From: Diabrotica undecimpunctata
Lineage: Eukaryota; Arthropoda; Insecta; Coleoptera; Chrysomelidae
Assembly: GCF_040954645.1 (NCBI RefSeq)
Contig: NC_092804.1
Span: forward strand, 143,787,108-143,851,107
DNA length: 64,000 nt
Direction: 5' to 3'
The translations under genes and the position numbers were made by a program. The notes beneath the pieces were generated by a model. That model worked only from the letters and a program-made list of their open reading frames with translations, was not told where the DNA came from and made no database searches. This document shows, piece after piece, positions 3,359 through 63,557 of the stretch; position 1 is the stretch's first letter; each line of letters opens with the position of its first letter.

Positions 3359-4105
3359 CGTTAAAAATACTTAAAGAGAACCAAATGCTAAATTTATGTT
3401 AACTATTACTTTACACGAGTAAATAAAACATTCGAATAAATTGGATTGTTTTGAATACATAGCCCTTTTACCCTGATTACATAAGTTTCCATTGAACAAC
3501 CTTAGTAGAACTTGTGAATAGGTCTAGTTTTTAGTGATCTTTTATTCGCATCTGCCTTGTTGAATACTGATTTTTCAAGCATGTAAGCTTACATTTTCTT
3601 AAAGTAGAAGATTAGGAAAGATGAACATTTATTTTTTCCAAAAAATCGGAACAACTGTCAAATGTCAATTTGAAAAAGATAGAAACTTATATGCAAAGAA
3701 AAGAAAATCATTATGAACTTATCAAATTTAACGCGTGCCTTTCAATAAAACTATCTCCGTCAGAAAAAAAATAATTGGTTAAAGTATTAGGACAAACCTA
3801 CATGACATGATCTCGTGAATTTTGAGGTTTCATGTTACTGGGGAGTTCATAAACAAACTATATTTAAATTTAGGTGACATAGAAAATTTTCATTAGGTCC
3901 TTAAATTCGTTTAGAAACTGCAAGAATTTGATTGATTCGAACTTTAGTGGGGCATTCTTCTTTTCTTGCCTCTGTGCCAGTTTTGTCATTTGCCTCTATT
4001 CAGACCTTTTCTGAGTTCTTCATTTCGCTTGCGTTCATCGATATCATATCGTCCTCTATGCTATCTACCAACGCATTCCTCTCTTTAGTTTCCTGTCGAT
4101 TTCTA
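3359..4105. other. No recognisable feature
   Basis: A+T-rich sequence. The only open frame of note (3932-4114, + strand, 60 codons) is a low-complexity Ser/Phe/Leu reading with no family resemblance and no splice context. I treat it as chance. Confidence 0.5.
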
Positions 4106-54726: not shown

Positions 54727-55057
54727 TTAGGAAATGACACACCCTGTGCTCTTAGGTGCAGAATTAATATCTATCATTTCTTTATTTTCTATCTTATCTA
54801 CATTTCCTGAGCTGCTGTCATCTAAAACGTCATTCTGAAGATGATTGCCAGTAGGGATCACCTTTTCTTTTATCGTTGTTTGTAAATTACCCCCATCTTG
54901 ATTCGAACTGGATTTGCGGGAACGCACCGGTTTTGGCGTTGTTACATTATTAGAAGCTACACCCTGTTGTTGAACTTGTTGGACTTTTACTTCCAAAATT
55001 CTTGTAAGGACGGAAATTTGATTATGTATTGCCAACATGAATGTAGAATATCCCAAG
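54727..55057 (-). CDS. RIC1: RIC1, last coding exon
   Basis: RIC1 pairs with RGP1 to activate Rab6 at the Golgi. On the - strand the exon follows acceptor TTTTTTAG. Its first base C completes TG|C (Cys) from the exon ending at 62601, giving NSECLGYSTFMLAIHNQISVL; the human protein, as I recall it, has STDCPGYKPFLNIIKPQLQKL at this place. A Gln-rich and then Ser/Asn-rich disordered tail follows. The protein ends GCVIS, a CaaX-type tetrapeptide; the human C terminus, from memory, is CSVS. Stop codon TAA at 54727-54729. Confidence 0.9.
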
Positions 55058-55504
55058 CTAAAAAAACAGTTTTAGTGAATACTGAACTAAAAATTAAATG
55101 TTCATATCGATGGTATAGTGCACAAATGTGGTAAGTACAAATTTTTAAGAAAATGATTTAAGTACACATAGTACATTATTTTGAACCAAAGTTTATTGTG
55201 CACAAAAGTGGTAAGTAAATAATGAACCGTGTAAGAAATACAAGTTGACATAATGTGTTAACTGCTAAATATAAGAAAAATTAAATGAACCAAATGTTGT
55301 ATGTGCCCTTACCACAAATGGTTTCTCTTCACTGTTCTAACATGAATGCTCCAATGTGGTAAGTATGGACATACCACATTTTGAAACACAAATTGGGAAC
55401 GCGGCCTTACAGAGTGAACTTGCCACTAGTGTAAGTAACAACGTATTTGCTCCGTTCCATTTTAATAAAGTTTAATATTATTTGAAGTCTAAAATAAGTG
55501 AAAT

Positions 55505-56437
55505 ATGAATAGTAGAGCACATCGTCTAGTACAACTTGCGTGTGAACAACAAAAAACAGGTAAGTGAAACTTAAAAACTAAGACATGGATCTTCATAACC
55601 TCTAAATTCGAAATTATATTATTTTAGAATTAAAAATATATTTATAAATACTAACATTTTTATTTATCTAAACATTGCAAAACAGATTGTATTGTGTTTT
55701 TTTTTTTGTTTCTAGCAGAATTATTAGATTTGAAGCCAACTACTGAACCATCTAGTCATATGGAGATACAGATAGTGGTAGTGAAGTAATTGCAACGAAT
55801 GATCAATATTGGACATTTCAGATGATAGTTCCTTAAGTTATCATCCTGAAACTAGTGAAGAGGACTCCGAGGAGTCTGATCATAAAGAAGGGCTTCAAAA
55901 TATTTTTGGTAAAATATGAAATTATTCTATTGTTTATTTTACTTTACTGTTCACTGTTTACTTTATTTTTGCCCATATTTTAATGTTACAATTTATTTAT
56001 TTATTTTAATTAGATAATAATAAAAATAATGAGAACAATGATGCACCTTCAGTACCTAGAATGAAAAGGCAAAGAAAAGCTCAGCCAGAAAACTGGAAAC
56101 GTAACAAAGCCAAACAGAATCGTATAAGTGGCCAGGAATATGTAAATAGGTCAGGAAAAATTGTTCCTATGAAAGGTGTTAAGAACACCAATTGTAGTAA
56201 ATGCCGGTAAGTTTTGACTTTCTATTTATTTCTTTTGGGTACTGATGGGTACTTTCTTTTGGGGAATGAACCAGAAAAACATTAAGTAGTGTCCAATCAT
56301 TACATAATTGTTATTATTATTTTAGATATAAATGCAATGCTAATTTTAATGAAGATCAGAGAAAAGTGTTATGTCAAGAATATTGGGGTTTGAGTGACAG
56401 TTGTAAGCAAAAACAGTATCTAGCATCTTTATTATAG
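55505..56437 (+). pseudogene. DUF7869-type transposon gene, 5' exons 1-4 (broken)
   Basis: Exon 1 55505-55559 (ATG; MNSRAHRLVQLACEQQKT; donor GGTAAGTG). Exon 2 55719-55908 (ELLDLKPTTEPSSH, then an acidic DTDSGSEV...YHPETSEEDSEESD stretch; two frameshifts). Exon 3 56014-56206 (basic RKAQPENWKRNKAKQNRISGQEYVN, SGKIVPMK, ending NCSKCR). Exon 4 56326-56437 (YKCNANFNEDQRKVLCQEYW ... KQKQYLASLL, stop TAG). Every boundary has GT/AG, and phases join correctly (G|AA, G|AT, CG|A). The Cys cluster CSKC...CxC looks metal-binding. The order (acidic tail, basic ENWKRNK, cysteine motif, KQxYL) is typical of the N-terminal half of this insect family. Confidence 0.78.
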
Positions 56438-57186
56438 TACATCCACTAATAATTTTCCAACATAAACATGTCACATTCTGGTATTAAAGAGACCGCCTTT
56501 CAAATCAAGGTTGTCAGACATATTTCCTAAAATTCCTAAGGTTATATTTAAAAAATATTCTCTATTCTCTATTCGTTATTATTTAATTGCTAGTCAACGA
56601 ACGACACTCTTAAAAAATGATATGAACATATTCCCAAAAAATATATCTATAAATTAATTAACTAGGTACTAATATTTCCATGGACTCTTCACTAATGAAT
56701 TAAAGCAACCGTGAACGTTTATATATTACTTATGCTCTAAGTAATTTTCGAATATCGGCAACATTGTAGTCTGGAGAGAATTTGGACCTTCGATATATCT
56801 TGACGTTGCCATGTTGGTGAATTTAGCGGTAATACTCTTATAGACATAATGATCGACTTTTAAGAAATCAGACATCTTTTAAGAATCCAAGTTCTCAAAA
56901 ACGGTTACAAGAATTGTATTATTTTTTTCCAAATTTCATTGATTTTATACCTTACCTGGAAACATGAAAAATTGCAGATATATTAATATGTTATATTAAA
57001 GTTACATTCAGTAATTTTAAACTCATGCATTATGACAACAGCGCAGCGCAAAGCGATAAATCGTAATCAACACCTGTGTGTCTGGATATGTGACACTCTA
57101 AAATATTCCTTTTTGCAACCAGATAACACAGGCGGAGGTTTATAAGGTATAAGATATAATTATAAGTAATATTATATTTTTCTAGA
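56438..57186. other. Sequence between broken exon 4 and the nested transposase ORF
   Basis: It presumably holds remaining exon 4 sequence, host-transposon intron, and the 5' part of the nested element. ATGTGACAC at about 57092 is inverted relative to GTGTCACAT at 58628. This is the only hint of terminal repeats for the nested element. Confidence 0.35.
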
Positions 57187-58560
57187 ATGGCATTTTGGAG
57201 ACCGTTTGAAACGAATGATCAAGATGCATCAACTTCTGTGTTATCAATAAATAATGACAATTATTTTAATGACAGCCCGGAATTAAAAAATAAAGATTTG
57301 CACGTACAATCCCAAAGAATAATTTTAAATATGTATGAGTGTTTGAAAAAAGAAAATATTGGGATGGCTGATAATGCAATTGTTTCGAGAATTCATATAT
57401 TAACAAAAATCGGGTATAAGACGATATATACAATTATTAAATTAGGCACTGTTACAGATCATTCCTTAAAACGAATGCGACCAAATAAAAAATTGGGTAG
57501 GATTGACACTGCTGCAAAAGACGTTATTCAACGAACAGTTTACAATTTTTACAAAGAAAATAGAGTGCCTACTTTAGAACTGATTCGTGAAAAATTGAGA
57601 GATTTCCCTGAATATAATTATACATCTTTGGAAACACTGCGCGAGATTTTGATAAGTTGTGGATTTAAATATAAGAAATTAGATAATCGAATGGTAATAA
57701 TGGAATCTCGGCGTATTGTTGAACTTCGACGAGAATATTTGAGTAAAATAAAACAGTATCGTAATTCAAACAGAAACATAATCTATTTAGACGAAACCTG
57801 GTTCGATACGCATGATGTTGTCAAGTACGGCTGGGTTGACAACACAAACAAGTGTGCGTTAAATACACCGTGTTCACGAGGAAAACGTGTTATTATTCTT
57901 CATGCCGGAAGCAAAGATGGTTTTGTATTTAATGCATTGCTATTGTCGGCCAAAAATATAACAAAGTCTTTTGCCGATTATCACGAAGATATGACAGCCG
58001 ATTTATTTGAAAAGTGGTTTGTTGAACAACTCTTGCCCAATATTCCGCCGAATTCAGTGATTGTTATGGATAATGCGTCGTATCATTCCCGCATATTAAA
58101 TAAAATACCTAATAATAACACGAAAAAGGACGAAATTTTAAAATTTATGCAACTTAAAAACATCACTGTTCCTAAAAAGATTCCAGTAAAGAAAGAATTA
58201 ATTAGAATGATCAAAAGTCGGAATTTTAAAAACGAATACGTTATTGACACCATTTGCAGCAGGCACGGCCATACTCTTTTGCGATTACCCCCATACTATT
58301 GCATTTTTAATCCAATTGGAATGGTTTGGGGTACCGTAAAAAAACGATTGCGAACATATAATCAGTCACTAACATTAAGCGCAGTGGCCATTGAGAATAT
58401 TCGAGAAGTAATTAGTGGCATTAATAGCGATGTGTGGAAAAATTGCGAAGCTCATGTTTTAAAAATAGAAAACGAATATCCTGTTTTACCGGCAATAGCA
58501 CCAATAGTTATCCAACCTGGGAACGATTCGACTTCAGAAGACTCTGACGATCCTTTTTAG
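57187..58560 (+). CDS. IS630/Tc1-superfamily transposase, intact 457-codon ORF, DD82 spacing, catalytic Glu replaced
   Basis: The uninterrupted ORF has an N-terminal helix-turn-helix-like region (about residues 43-85; ending GYKTIYTIIKLG) and a second one at about 110-165 (TSLETLREILISCGFKYKK). The DDE_3-type catalytic core has Asp202 in IIYLDETWFDTH and Asp295 in VIVMDNASYHS. NPIGMVW sits where NPIE(L/M)VW is expected. The gap from Asp295 to that position is 82 residues, with a Lys-rich insertion (about 305-360), matching a DD82E group I know as Sailor-like. The third acidic residue is Gly378 (GGA instead of GAA/GAG), so it should be catalytically dead despite no stop or frameshift. The C terminus is acidic (TSEDSDDPF). 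It sits inside the larger 55-62.5 kb transposon, sense to that gene and antisense to RIC1. Confidence 0.88.
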   Translation: MAFWRPFETNDQDASTSVLSINNDNYFNDSPELKNKDLHVQSQRIILNMYECLKKENIGMADNAIVSRIHILTKIGYKTIYTIIKLGTVTDHSLKRMRPNKKLGRIDTAAKDVIQRTVYNFYKENRVPTLELIREKLRDFPEYNYTSLETLREILISCGFKYKKLDNRMVIMESRRIVELRREYLSKIKQYRNSNRNIIYLDETWFDTHDVVKYGWVDNTNKCALNTPCSRGKRVIILHAGSKDGFVFNALLLSAKNITKSFADYHEDMTADLFEKWFVEQLLPNIPPNSVIVMDNASYHSRILNKIPNNNTKKDEILKFMQLKNITVPKKIPVKKELIRMIKSRNFKNEYVIDTICSRHGHTLLRLPPYYCIFNPIGMVWGTVKKRLRTYNQSLTLSAVAIENIREVISGINSDVWKNCEAHVLKIENEYPVLPAIAPIVIQPGNDSTSEDSDDPF

Positions 58561-59204
58561 TCCTTCTAATTAATTTCTTTACAGCTATCGCGATGCATCT
58601 TGAACACTAGTATTCATTATTATACAGTGTGTCACATTTAAGATGAAAACACCTCTATATATCAGCTATCAAAATACATACAGATTTAAAATTTTGCACA
58701 GTCATACATGTTGATAGTGCACATTTTTTTAAGATAGTGATCTGAAATTTTAATTTTAAACGCGGCTTACTGCGAATCCACAAACAGGGTAAATTTTCGA
58801 TATTTTGCTTCGCGTTAGAGAAATCGGAAAAACTTATTTGGAAAAGTTGTTCCACTTATTGTAACCGCACATACCAAATTTCATGACAAAATTCGCAATT
58901 TTAGTTTTTCAGTATTATTTGTAATCTCGATCATAAATCTACAATTGATGCATCTCGGGACAGCCAACTGTCCGTTTTAGAATCCTGACTACAATTGAAG
59001 ATCTTATTTCCAAAGTGTCTTAAATCCATATAATGAAATCCATGAAATTACAGATTTTCATACAAATTTAACATACAAATTATACAATTTTCATATGCAC
59101 TTTTAAATAAATAAGAAGTTGTTTTGGTACATATAACTTTATTCTAGACTTTAGACTCTAAGAAGAAATCTATAAAGTTTAAAAAAAGAAAATTAAATCT
59201 TATC

Positions 59205-59208
<4 letters not shown>

Positions 59209-59278
<70 letters not shown>
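59209..59278. repeat. (AT)n microsatellite, about 70 bp
   Basis: An AT run about 70 bp downstream (in - sense) of hammerhead-like copy 3. Confidence 0.97.
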
Positions 59279-59282
<4 letters not shown>

Positions 59283-59349
59283 GGGTTGAGGTTAATTGGG
59301 TATACAGCTGATTAAAAGCCAAGTGTACTCTGTTTAACAATTCATTATA

Positions 59350-59377
59350 TTTCGCCAATTTTCATTGGCATCATCAG
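59350..59377 (-). ncRNA. Hammerhead-like ribozyme core (copy 3)
   Basis: The - strand reads CUGAUGA, U, GCCAAU, GAAA loop, AUUGGC, GAAA, with a perfect 6-bp stem II. The flank downstream (GAGTAC, then CTGTATACCCAA) is shared with copy 1 at 20861. As in the other copies there is one extra U before stem II, and stems I and III are uncertain. Confidence 0.55.
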
Positions 59378-60410
59378 ATGAGAGCTACAATTATTTAAAA
59401 CATGGTAAAATATAATTTAATAATAGTTTGTTGTTTATATACTTACTTAATTGAGGTTAATGGCAGTGCGATTTATTTTAATACCATCAAGTAAAAATTT
59501 TTTTGTTGGAATAATGTTGAATGTAGTTGATGTTGATTACAAATTAAAATATAGGAAACAAATACAATTCAAATTAAAAATAAAACAGACACAACGTTTA
59601 GTTCGGTAAATGTCATTAAGGTTAAGTACTAGAACTATCAAATATCGAATGTTATTAATTGACTTTTGTGAAGATGATTAGTTCCATGGTGTTGACGTAG
59701 TAGTTGTTTATTTGATTAATATTTACTGTAAGGTGTGTTATAGTTGAAAAAATTTTTGAAATTACATTATGTGTTGTATTAATTATTTGATAGTTATATG
59801 TGTCTATTTATAACATTATAAATAGACCTTTGAAGAGTCCTATTCAAAAATGCCCCGTTTAAACAAATCGAAGGTTGAAGGGTGCCGGACATTTATGCCG
59901 GAAACAATTCAAATTCAAAAGATCACCTTTTTCTGCTACGGAAAATATTGCCCCGATTTCTCACCAAAATCAATGTTGAGACTTTAGTTTAGATACTCTT
60001 GAATCTCAAAAATACTCATTTACATATTTTTCAAGCCTCGAAAATGCATATTAGGTATCGTATTTTTCGGATTTTAAATCGCCTATATCTCCAAAACTAT
60101 TAACTTTTGAGAAAAATGACATAGATCTTATTTAGAGTCACCCAAAAACCTAAAAAATATTTCTTGGAGCACAAAAGGTGATATTTTGAATTTGTTTAAA
60201 AAATTGTTTAAACAATTTCTGCCCAAAAATTGAGAAATTTTCCTGAATATAATTATGTAAAAATTAATAAAAATTATATAATTTTTCTTGAAATATGCGT
60301 TTGATGAACTGATCCCTTTTCTTAATTTCCACGCCAATGGTCGGCATTGACATCAAAGAATCTTAAAAGCCGACGCTTGGCAAATTGACATTGGAAAAAG
60401 TATAACATTT

Positions 60411-62187
60411 AGTGACGTTGTTCGCCGTAGATTAAATGTTAAAAACCCAAAACATATGTCCAAACAATATCATTTAAGGTCGCGTGGAGGAAAATTAATT
60501 AGAGTATGCATGAAGTTTCTTTGTAACACATTATCAATAAGTCACGGCATGTTAGATACTAGACTTTGTCAAATATGGGCAATTATTCTGGCACTGATAA
60601 AAAAATTGGTAACAGACCAGTGAATAATGCTACATCAGAGAAAAATAATGCACTTGTAAAATCTCACATAGACTCTTTTCCTAGGATGGAGTCTCATTAC
60701 TACAGGCGTGATAGTACAAAACTATATTTGGCATCTGATTTAAATATAAGTATAATGTACCGTTTATACAAAGAGTGTAGATGGACCTGTGTCATATTAC
60801 GTATATAAAAACATTTTTCACTCATATGATCCAGTATTAAGCTTTTATCAACCAAAAAAGGATCAATGTACCAAATGTAATACATACAATGCATCTTTAG
60901 ACAAAAGTGACTTGGAAAATGAGTGGTAAGCACACAAAAATAGAGAAAAGGAAGCAATGCAGATGAAACATTCTGACAAAATAAGAGCAGAAGAGGATCA
61001 AGGAAAACATTTAGATCTATTTCGTTTGATCTACAAAGCATTTTAACACTTCCATTTGCAGGTGACTCTGCAATATTTTATAAAAGAAAGTTAAATGCAT
61101 ACAATTTTACGATTTTTGATCCCCATTCAAAAAATGGTTTTTGTTACGTGTGGGATGAGTGCAATGGTCAGAAGGGAAGTACTGAAGTAGCTACATGCAT
61201 TTTAAAATATTTAGGTTCCTTACCTGATACTGTCAAGTATGTATCTAGTTTCTCTGACACATGTAGAGGTCAGAATCGAAATAAACACATCTCTGCTGCA
61301 ATGTTATATGCTGTAAATGTATCTAGCCATTTAAAAATAATAGATTTAAAGTACATGGAGAGTGGACATTCCTACTTAGAAGTAGAATCAATGCATGCCA
61401 CTATAGAAAGAGCAAGGAAGCATAAGAAAATTTACACTACCAGGGAATGGGCACTGCTAATCTCGACTGCCAGAATTAATCCAAGAAATTATGAAGTCAA
61501 TGTATTAAATAACCAAGATTTTCACGATTTTAAAGCGCTGACAACAGAAGTGTTACACAACACAACAAAAAACACCAACGGGGAGACGGTAAATTGGTTA
61601 AAAATTAAGTGGCTACGATTTTCTAAAGGGAAACCTAACCTTATTCTTTATAAGTACAATTTAAATGCTGAAGAGTTTATGAACATTAATATTAATCAGA
61701 AGAGGAATGCCAAGGTAAACTGTAAAGTATTGTATTATTTAACATTTTATTTTGACTAAGTTGGAAAATTGAAACCTTTAGCTTTTCATCAAAGTTAAAA
61801 ATGTGTTCACCATTATCACCAAAACTACTAAACACTAAACTTAACACTTGAACTAAATTAGCATCATCAGGAGACGACTAAGATAGTGGTGAACACACTT
61901 TTCAACTTTAATTTTGACTAGAGTAGCCTTCTTTCTTCTTTTTACTGCACTTTGTAAAGCAGTGAGAATGGATTACACCGATGTTTGTTATTTTGCAGGT
62001 AGCAGATTTGCAGCAAATAAATTTAAAGAAGGCTTTTCCCAATCTGCTTCCCATCAGTAAACAAAAAAAAAAGAAGGATTTGCTCAGTTTATTGGAAACT
62101 CACGTCATACCAAGAGAGTATGAAGCATTTTATAACACTTTACCAACAAGTAATAGAATAAGATATGATAATTCTGATGATGAATAA
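60411..62187 (+). pseudogene. DUF7869-type transposon gene, 3' exons (broken)
   Basis: Recognisable from about 60411: RRLNVKNPKHMSKQYHLRS, RVCMKFLCNTLSISH, a frameshift, KKIGNRPVNNATSEKNN and VKSHIDSFPRMESHYYRRDS. Then SFYQPKKDQCTKCNTYNASL (Cys pair), a stop in ENEW.AHKN, and another frameshift before SFDLQSILTLPFAG. The best preserved part is 61148-61714: WDECNGQKGSTEVATCILKYLG, FSDTCRGQNRN, ESGHSYLEVESMHATIE. The first two Asp are 33 residues apart, and an acidic third candidate (E78, E80 or E87 of this block) follows, an RNase-H-fold-like D-D-E pattern. It splices at AAG|GTAAAC (61714) to 61999 (TTTTGCAG|GTAGCAG), reading VADLQQINLKKAFPNLLPISK ... YEAFYNTLP, stop TAA 62185-62187 overlapping AATAAA. 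That the family is a transposase is inferred from this element's TIRs. Confidence 0.8.
61770..61925. repeat. Small inverted-repeat insertion in the last intron of the transposon gene
   Basis: AAGTTAAAAATGTGTTCACC (to about 61812) and its inverted partner GGTGAACACACTTTTCAACTT (from about 61887) form arms of at least 27 bp with few mismatches. They flank about 65 bp that includes CATCATCAGG. It looks like a very short MITE. Confidence 0.6.
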
Positions 62188-62600
62188 ATATTTGTATTCA
62201 TTCTTTTTGCGAATTAAACAATTTTTCCTTGATATTTTTTATTTAATTTCATTTAGAAACTTATAGTATATAACTGTCAAATGGGGTATGTACAATATAA
62301 GAAACTCCATGTGGTAAGTACATACCTATAAGTACAAAAATCTATATTTAAGTATTTAAAAGTAAGTAAACTTTTTTAAACTAATAACTATGTGACAGAT
62401 AACGGTTCTGTACTCAAGCTTACACAAAACTAAATTTATAGAAATTAAGACCTACACACGCTGTCTAACAGAACTTTCAAATGGCTGTACTGTAAAATGT
62501 TAGTTTTTGCACTTACCACAATTGTGCGCTATGCCATCGATATATTATATTTTGTACATAATATAAATCGTTGTTGGCAATAATAAAAGATTTATCTTAC

Positions 62601-62789
62601 CATTCACTATTAGTCCAATAATTAATGATGAGAAGACCTTGTCGTAACCTTGACACAGTTTCGACTGTCTGATCATGAGATTTCGCGGCATTTATAATAC
62701 GTAATACAGCCATAGCATCTCTCAACAGAATTGAAAAAACTAAAGACCACTCTAAACAATTTGCTTCCATAAACAATTGCAAAAGATAC
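62601..62789 (-). CDS. RIC1: RIC1, penultimate coding exon
   Basis: - strand exon: acceptor TTTTCAG before 62789, donor GAATG|GTAAGA after 62601. With the upstream exon it encodes SEVQLRYLLQLFMEANCLEW, continuing to LLRDAMAVLR and LRQGLLIINYWTNSEC. The human protein, as I recall, has SQVQLRYLLHIFMEAGCLDW and GLHAVDRWASTDC at the same place. It is a helical segment of the conserved RIC1 C-terminal domain. Split codons AG|G (Arg) and TG|C (Cys) join exactly on both sides. Confidence 0.92.
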
Positions 62790-63557
62790 CTGAAAACGAA
62801 AATAGATTTATTTGTTATTGAGTTTAGTGTACGCAAAAGAACAACTTTGCTCTAATACTAATACAACAATTACGGCATTGGTGCTATTCATCATCATCAT
62901 CAGTGGTGCTACAGCTCTAGTTGAGCCTTGACCTTCCCCAGTCTATTTCGCCAGTCGTTTCTGTTCATCGCCAATTTACCGCGCCGATTTTCCTTGCGTC
63001 CTCGTCCACACCGTCCCTCCATCTCAGTCGTGGTCTGCCTCTACTCCTATTTCCCACTGGGACCGATAATAGAGTTCGTCTGGGTGGGTAATTTTCATTT
63101 GCTCTTGACCATTGGTGCTATTAATAAGATTAAATTTTTTCCTGTTCCAACAGTTCAATTTCTAGTGGTGAAATTAGCATCGTATTTTAAAACCTGCTCT
63201 TTAAAATCCTACGTTATATTGATGCCATCTTATGTAATATAGAGGTCATTGCATGTGCAGAACGTAAACAGGCATTGTTGGGAATTGCAAAGACCTTATT
63301 TCAACAAATTTAGAGAAATATAATTTAGAAATGAGAAATTGATAATAAACAGGAACTTCCGGTTGGATAAAGCGTCTATTGACCGAAGAACAGAAAGCAG
63401 CTAGGTTGAATTAGTTTTTGTTTTATTATTATTATACAATGATATCGAGCCAAAGCAGAGTTCATGTGGCCCAAAGTACAAAATATTTGTAGGTACTAAA
63501 GTAAATAATAATAAATTTAAAATTATTATTATTATCACTTAAATCAGTAAAACTCAC
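62790..63557 (-). other. RIC1 intron, about 770 bp
   Basis: Donor GTGAGT at 63557 and acceptor TTTTCAG ending at 62790 (- strand). It contains the LINE 3' fragment at 62885-63105; the rest is A+T-rich with short ATT runs. Confidence 0.85.
62885..63105 (-). mobile_element. LINE 3' fragment with (GATGAT)n tail inside a RIC1 intron
   Basis: On the - strand: RSRGRPRLRWRDGVDEDARKIGAVNWR, then AGAGCTGTAGCACCACTGATGATGATG-type tail. The GRPxxRWxDxVxxDxxxxGxxxW pattern is the C-terminal end of insect RTE-like LINE proteins, and the run of GAT is their usual tail. 5'-truncated, same orientation as RIC1. Confidence 0.78.

Follow-up and report, generated by a model that had tools for sequence, protein, structure and literature searches.

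A decayed DNA transposon of Diabrotica undecimpunctata whose DUF7869 gene very probably encodes its own transposase

Genes with a DUF7869 domain (PF25273), which Pfam describes without a function, raise the question of whether they are host genes, passengers of mobile elements or the enzymes that move them. In the stretch of Diabrotica undecimpunctata DNA analysed here (the window, 64,000 nucleotides, NC_092804.1, C2:143787108-143851107, to whose letters the bare positions below refer), such a gene is enclosed by terminal inverted repeats (TIRs) in an element spanning 55108-62539, that is 7,432 bp with a nested insertion included. We hold with high confidence that this is a decayed cut-and-paste DNA transposon that carries the gene of its own transposase; DUF7869 is very probably that transposase, and we infer its catalysis. 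This reading, already proposed in an earlier note on this DNA, is well supported, because TIRs flank DUF7869 genes elsewhere in the genome, empty sites exist for relatives and the conserved core is predicted to adopt an RNase H fold.

Regarding the ends, the 34-bp TIRs previously noticed are confirmed, pairing at 30 of 34 positions when counted from the terminal CG, and the same repeats were detected independently as an inverted repeat (I8, 38 nt, 89%). A 9-mer, GTGGTAAGT, picked post hoc with the TIR already seen, occurs five times in the element, each time at most 260 bp from an end, where 200 base shuffles average 0.03, and is a possible candidate for subterminal repeats bound by the transposase. 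The terminal features are as follows.

55104-55107, no strand: left target-site duplication ATAT, its 4-bp length fixed from other copies
55108-55141, plus strand: left TIR, CGATGGTATAGTGCACAAATGTGGTAAGTACAAA
55128-55364, plus strand: three left-end copies of GTGGTAAGT, starting at 55128 (in the TIR), 55208 and 55356
62311-62519: two right-end copies of GTGGTAAGT, at 62311 (plus strand) and 62511 (minus strand, in the TIR)
62506-62539, minus strand: right TIR, CGATGGCATAGCGCACAATTGTGGTAAGTGCAAA
62540-62543, no strand: right target-site duplication ATAT

The association of these ends with DUF7869 extends beyond the window. Across the 1.74 Gb of genome searched, a 17-bp TIR pattern with at most one mismatch gave 55 matches, compared to 7 with a reversed control, and a DUF7869 match lies within 8 kb of 33 of the 55, so that TIRs do stand beside DUF7869 genes elsewhere, as the earlier note had asked to be checked. 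This proximity was scripted on 67 of 150 DUF7869 matches, and the other 83, inspected by eye, added none. The 150 are the best scored of 21,288 first-look candidates in the protein search (all with E 1.6e-51 or better), and a Pfam search likewise scored the best 150 of 8,786, all above the cut-off; the family is therefore large in this genome, and the numbers given here are minimum values. Two short elements, L011:8134-9623 (1,490 bp) and L012:281-1697 (1,417 bp), are bounded by the TIRs and by ATAT duplications, have no DUF7869 match among the best 150 scored, and are derivatives that presumably moved in trans.

A sister family, represented by L049, has 62% identity to the window family in the core. 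The region of the window gene is there a single frame of 668 codons, the protein has 647 aa and the gene probably possesses one upstream exon, while the whole L049 element measures 3,049 bp and its sole frame above 155 codons is the DUF7869 frame. DUF7869 is the main open frame of TIR elements of about 3 kb, and the sister family moved recently, because its copies are near-identical. Where the window family has introns 2-4, the sister family, though it shares the genome, has one frame, a case of introns gained or lost within a transposase gene. More distant DUF7869 families possess their own TIRs: L063 and L064, the two copies read of one family, share a 682-aa frame, 98.7% identity over 3.37 kb, the TIR CGTGGGYATACTGCA and ATAT ends (L063 being about 3.3 kb long), and L065 and L066, the two copies read of another, share a 619-aa frame, 99.7% over 2.76 kb, the TIR GAATCGCAAACTGCAG and ATAT ends (L065 being 2,751 bp).

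Protein database searches at E<=0.001 returned 509 and 373 matches, many of them 'uncharacterized proteins' of animals, with named sources including Hydra, nemerteans, limpets, sea cucumbers and many insects; of 55 stretches fitting a pattern for prokaryotic relatives, none was confirmed. By precomputed annotation, 5 of the 120 relatives listed (P0139, P0160, P0162, P0174 and P0180) contain a cysteine protease domain of OTU type (PF02338), and the fusion of OTU and DUF7869 was confirmed for P0139, with a DUF7869 score below the cut-off.

The length of the target-site duplication was settled from 17 insertions of the window TIR group for which both ends were read: the window copy, L009, L010, L011, L012, L013, L018, nine sister-family copies and one insertion on C11, represented by three copies with the same flanks and counted once. 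The duplication is 4 bp long, and the ends agree in 15 of the 17 (12 ATAT, one ATAA, one AAAT and one ATTT). The TA formerly seen outside each end is consequently part of a longer repeat, since a duplication of TA alone cannot account for the AAAT and ATTT copies. Single-end readings, including L014, L025, L035, L039-L042 and L044-L047, stand outside this count, and several differ from ATAT, such as L025, L035 and L046.

Empty sites with one 4-bp target were found for three insertions other than the window copy; the expectation of empty sites was borne out, and that of TA flanks was not. For C6:159655149 (ATTT), the flanks joined with one ATTT match through the join in 40 of 40 scored places, at 98-100% (best 40 of 1,151 candidates). 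For C7:71553863, 20 of 40 scored matches cross the join (best 40 of 149 candidates), 15 of these being of 206 bases, equal in length and 94-96% identical. For L066, five relatives were read, with a single ATAT in four and GTAT in one. These empty sites are further repeat copies and not products of excision. The repeat hosting the L065 insertion (L065:985-1000, 3740-3760) is one that we take, from its motifs, for a putative Harbinger-like gene.

As to the protein itself, the window fragment matches PF25273 with E=1e-5 and 25.7 bits, just below the cut-off of 26, in agreement with the domain first recognized between the TIRs, and relatives exceed that cut-off, namely the L049 sister protein (26.1) and the L065 family (64). 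Two structure models agree in predicting an RNase H fold of the integrase/transposase kind for the conserved block, with Mos1 and SETMAR among the structure matches. The earlier note had likewise suggested such a fold, with a D-x33-D...E layout; the predicted fold stands and the proposed residues do not. The aspartate of 'WDE' (D399) is kept by only 39 of 75 homologues, and is for that reason unlikely to be the first catalytic residue, while E474 and E483 are non-acidic in the second clade, except for one D at 474. Instead, the conserved acidic triad is D-x75-D-x42-D (D357, D433 and D476). In the window it corresponds to the aspartates at 61028 (D of 'FDLQ') and 61256 and to a third acidic position at 61385, which is D in 74/75 and 118/118 homologues and GAA, coding for E, in the decayed window copy. 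Outside the proposed triad, an invariant glutamate at position 400 of P0079, after WD, is found in 75/75 and 116/118 homologues.

The window gene has five exons and four GT-AG introns, and not at least six exons as once supposed, and its reading frame is broken at several points, as can be seen below.

55505-55559, plus strand: exon 1, MNSRAHRLVQLACEQQKT plus one further base that opens the following codon, with a GT donor at its end
55719-55908, plus strand: exon 2, acidic stretch, frameshifted
56014-56206, plus strand: exon 3, basic stretch, its final NCSKCR forming the first Cys pair
56326-56434, plus strand: exon 4, portion 5' of the nested insertion
56435-60402, no strand: nested insertion of 3,968 bp, with a TA dinucleotide on either side
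57187-58560, plus strand: open IS630/Tc1-mariner-type transposase gene in the nested insertion, 457 aa
60403-61714, plus strand: exon 4, portion 3' of the nested insertion, the remaining transposase as far as the last intron, with frameshift and a stop TAA at 60927-60929
60977-61714, plus strand: DUF7869 and predicted RNase H-fold catalytic core
61999-62187, plus strand: exon 5, including the stop codon

With frameshifts in exons 2 and 4, the stop at 60927-60929 and the nested insertion in exon 4, the window copy is, to judge from its sequence, a dead fossil that can no longer move by itself, and the sister copies L009 and L010 are likewise damaged. The nested gene matches PF13358 DDE_3 with E=5.5e-13 and NF033545 with 51.4 bits, below its cut-off of 100. 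A 32-bp piece of it is repeated at 60225, and the stretch that we take to be the site of the third acidic residue in such enzymes reads NPIG here.

Minus-strand open frames with splice-like junctions flank the element at 54730-55071 and 62600-62851. This arrangement suggests that the element may lie inside a minus-strand host gene, in an intron that would be short (about 100 bp) with the element removed; the Pfam matches of this gene all fall below the cut-offs, and PDB gave no match for it.

Considering these features together, we infer DNA binding, excision and strand transfer by the DUF7869 protein along the following lines. The N-terminal half, with its Cys pairs and basic residues, would probably bind DNA, the transposase presumably recognizing the TIR and the adjoining GTGGTAAGT repeats and then pairing the element ends. 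The element would be cut out by a D-D-D active site of RNase H fold and joined to a target made of A and T only (ATAT, AAAT, ATTT or ATAA) with a 4-bp stagger, giving rise to the 4-bp duplication.

Several observations weigh against this reading. The remaining 22 of the 55 TIR matches have no DUF7869 match within 8 kb, the ends of L011 and L012 being among them. In two of the 17 insertions the ends disagree, C11:3851348 having TATT/AATA in a TA microsatellite and C4:161062042 having GCTT/ATAT. The L063/L064 and L065/L066 ends show ATAT only, which taken alone fits a duplication of either 4 bp or TA, and L064 sits in a TA repeat and is thus uninformative. For the window family no empty site was found, the flanks of the window copy and of L010 being unique in the assembly (apart from 15 short matches, each some 40 bases long, for L010), and three relatives of the L065 site are 4 bases short at the join, leaving no clean empty site there; these shortened relatives could represent a different allele or what remains of an insertion made earlier. 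Regarding the fold, Foldseek is weak when taken alone: with the full model it gave a single match below 1e-3, TnsB at 3.9e-4, and with the window core none (best 2.1e-3), the top being a mixture of NurA, Tdp2, terminase and Argonaute, and a sequence search for solved structures in PDB gave no match.

Other explanations must be weighed against the same evidence. That DUF7869, as a passenger or a host gene, rides in an element moved by another transposase could be argued from the open DDE_3 gene between the TIRs. This nested gene is refuted as the mover, because its insertion is not present in L009 and L010, the two sister copies compared; moreover, the 3.05-kb L049 element offers no other frame above 155 codons, and the TA duplication described for Tc1/mariner elements (PMC10741241) differs from the 4 bp found here, so that a passenger role is very improbable. 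An element of Tc1/mariner type with TA duplications has next to no probability, even if TA is contained in ATAT and Mos1 and SETMAR appear among the fold matches, as the AAAT/AAAT and ATTT/ATTT insertions refute it, and the ATAA/ATAA insertion, the empty sites holding one 4-bp target and the lack of DDE_3 or kindred Pfam domains in the window and L049 proteins, scanned up to E=1, argue in the same direction.

A further alternative concerns the classification and not the transposase role: DUF7869 may belong to a new superfamily of DDD transposons without common descent with Sola2, in spite of the same duplication and triad. In its favor, no relation of DUF7869 proteins to a named transposase was found in Pfam beyond DUF7869 itself, in NCBIfam or in PDB, the literature searched yielded no paper mentioning DUF7869 or PF25273, and the ATAA duplication (1 of the 15 matching ones) lies outside the AWWT pattern. 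However, the pattern seen here is that described for Sola (DDD and 4 bp) and Sola2 (AWWT), Sola2 already stands in a 2015 Repbase table, and insect miniature inverted-repeat transposable elements have been assigned to it, so that separate descent appears unlikely. It is similarly doubtful that DUF7869 forms its own superfamily apart from Sola2, one that would use DDD chemistry, leave 4-bp duplications of A and T only and comprise two or more deep clades; were this true, its genes would perhaps rank with the most numerous transposase genes of insects to have gone unrecognised.

Under either classification, DUF7869 as a probable transposase core means that annotation should mask such genes as transposons instead of counting them as host gene families, and its function would explain many unannotated animal proteins. 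Since this genome retains open copies that are nearly identical, the transposase claim can be tested directly.

Comparing the element with known systems, Tc1/mariner transposases and retroviral integrases share the predicted RNase H fold, with D on strands 1 and 4 and an acidic residue on the following helix, but differ from it by DDE in place of DDD, by the D1-D2 spacing, which is 75 here, and by the lack of a sequence match. The profiles named for CACTA/Mirage/Chapaev (Transposase_21, DUF1258 and DUF1280; PMC3985635) were not found in the Pfam scans of DUF7869 proteins, which covered the window and L049 up to E=1 and L065 and P0139 up to 0.1. The closest likeness is to Sola2, and by its described features the element is likely of Sola2 type. 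The portion of PMC8982398 available does not discuss a Sola transposon. The Sola2 elements of social amoebae have TIRs of 12-21 bp, compared to about 34 bp here, they carry Fanzor1, and one of them has a transposase of 888 aa, compared to the 647 aa of the sister protein (PMC3627910). The Sola2 assignment is made because a DDD transposase and 4-bp AWWT duplications match the descriptions, and the idea of an unnamed or poorly described family is thus probably wrong. Sola elements are described with a DDD transposase, 4-bp duplications and lengths mostly of 2-9 kb (PMC10741241), and Sola2 of social amoebae with AWWT duplications, including ATAT, AAAT and ATTT (PMC3627910); here, the triad indicated by conservation is DDD, 14 of the 15 matching AT-rich duplications fall within AWWT, and the TIR-bounded elements, from L065 through L049 and L063 to the window copy, all lie within that range of lengths.

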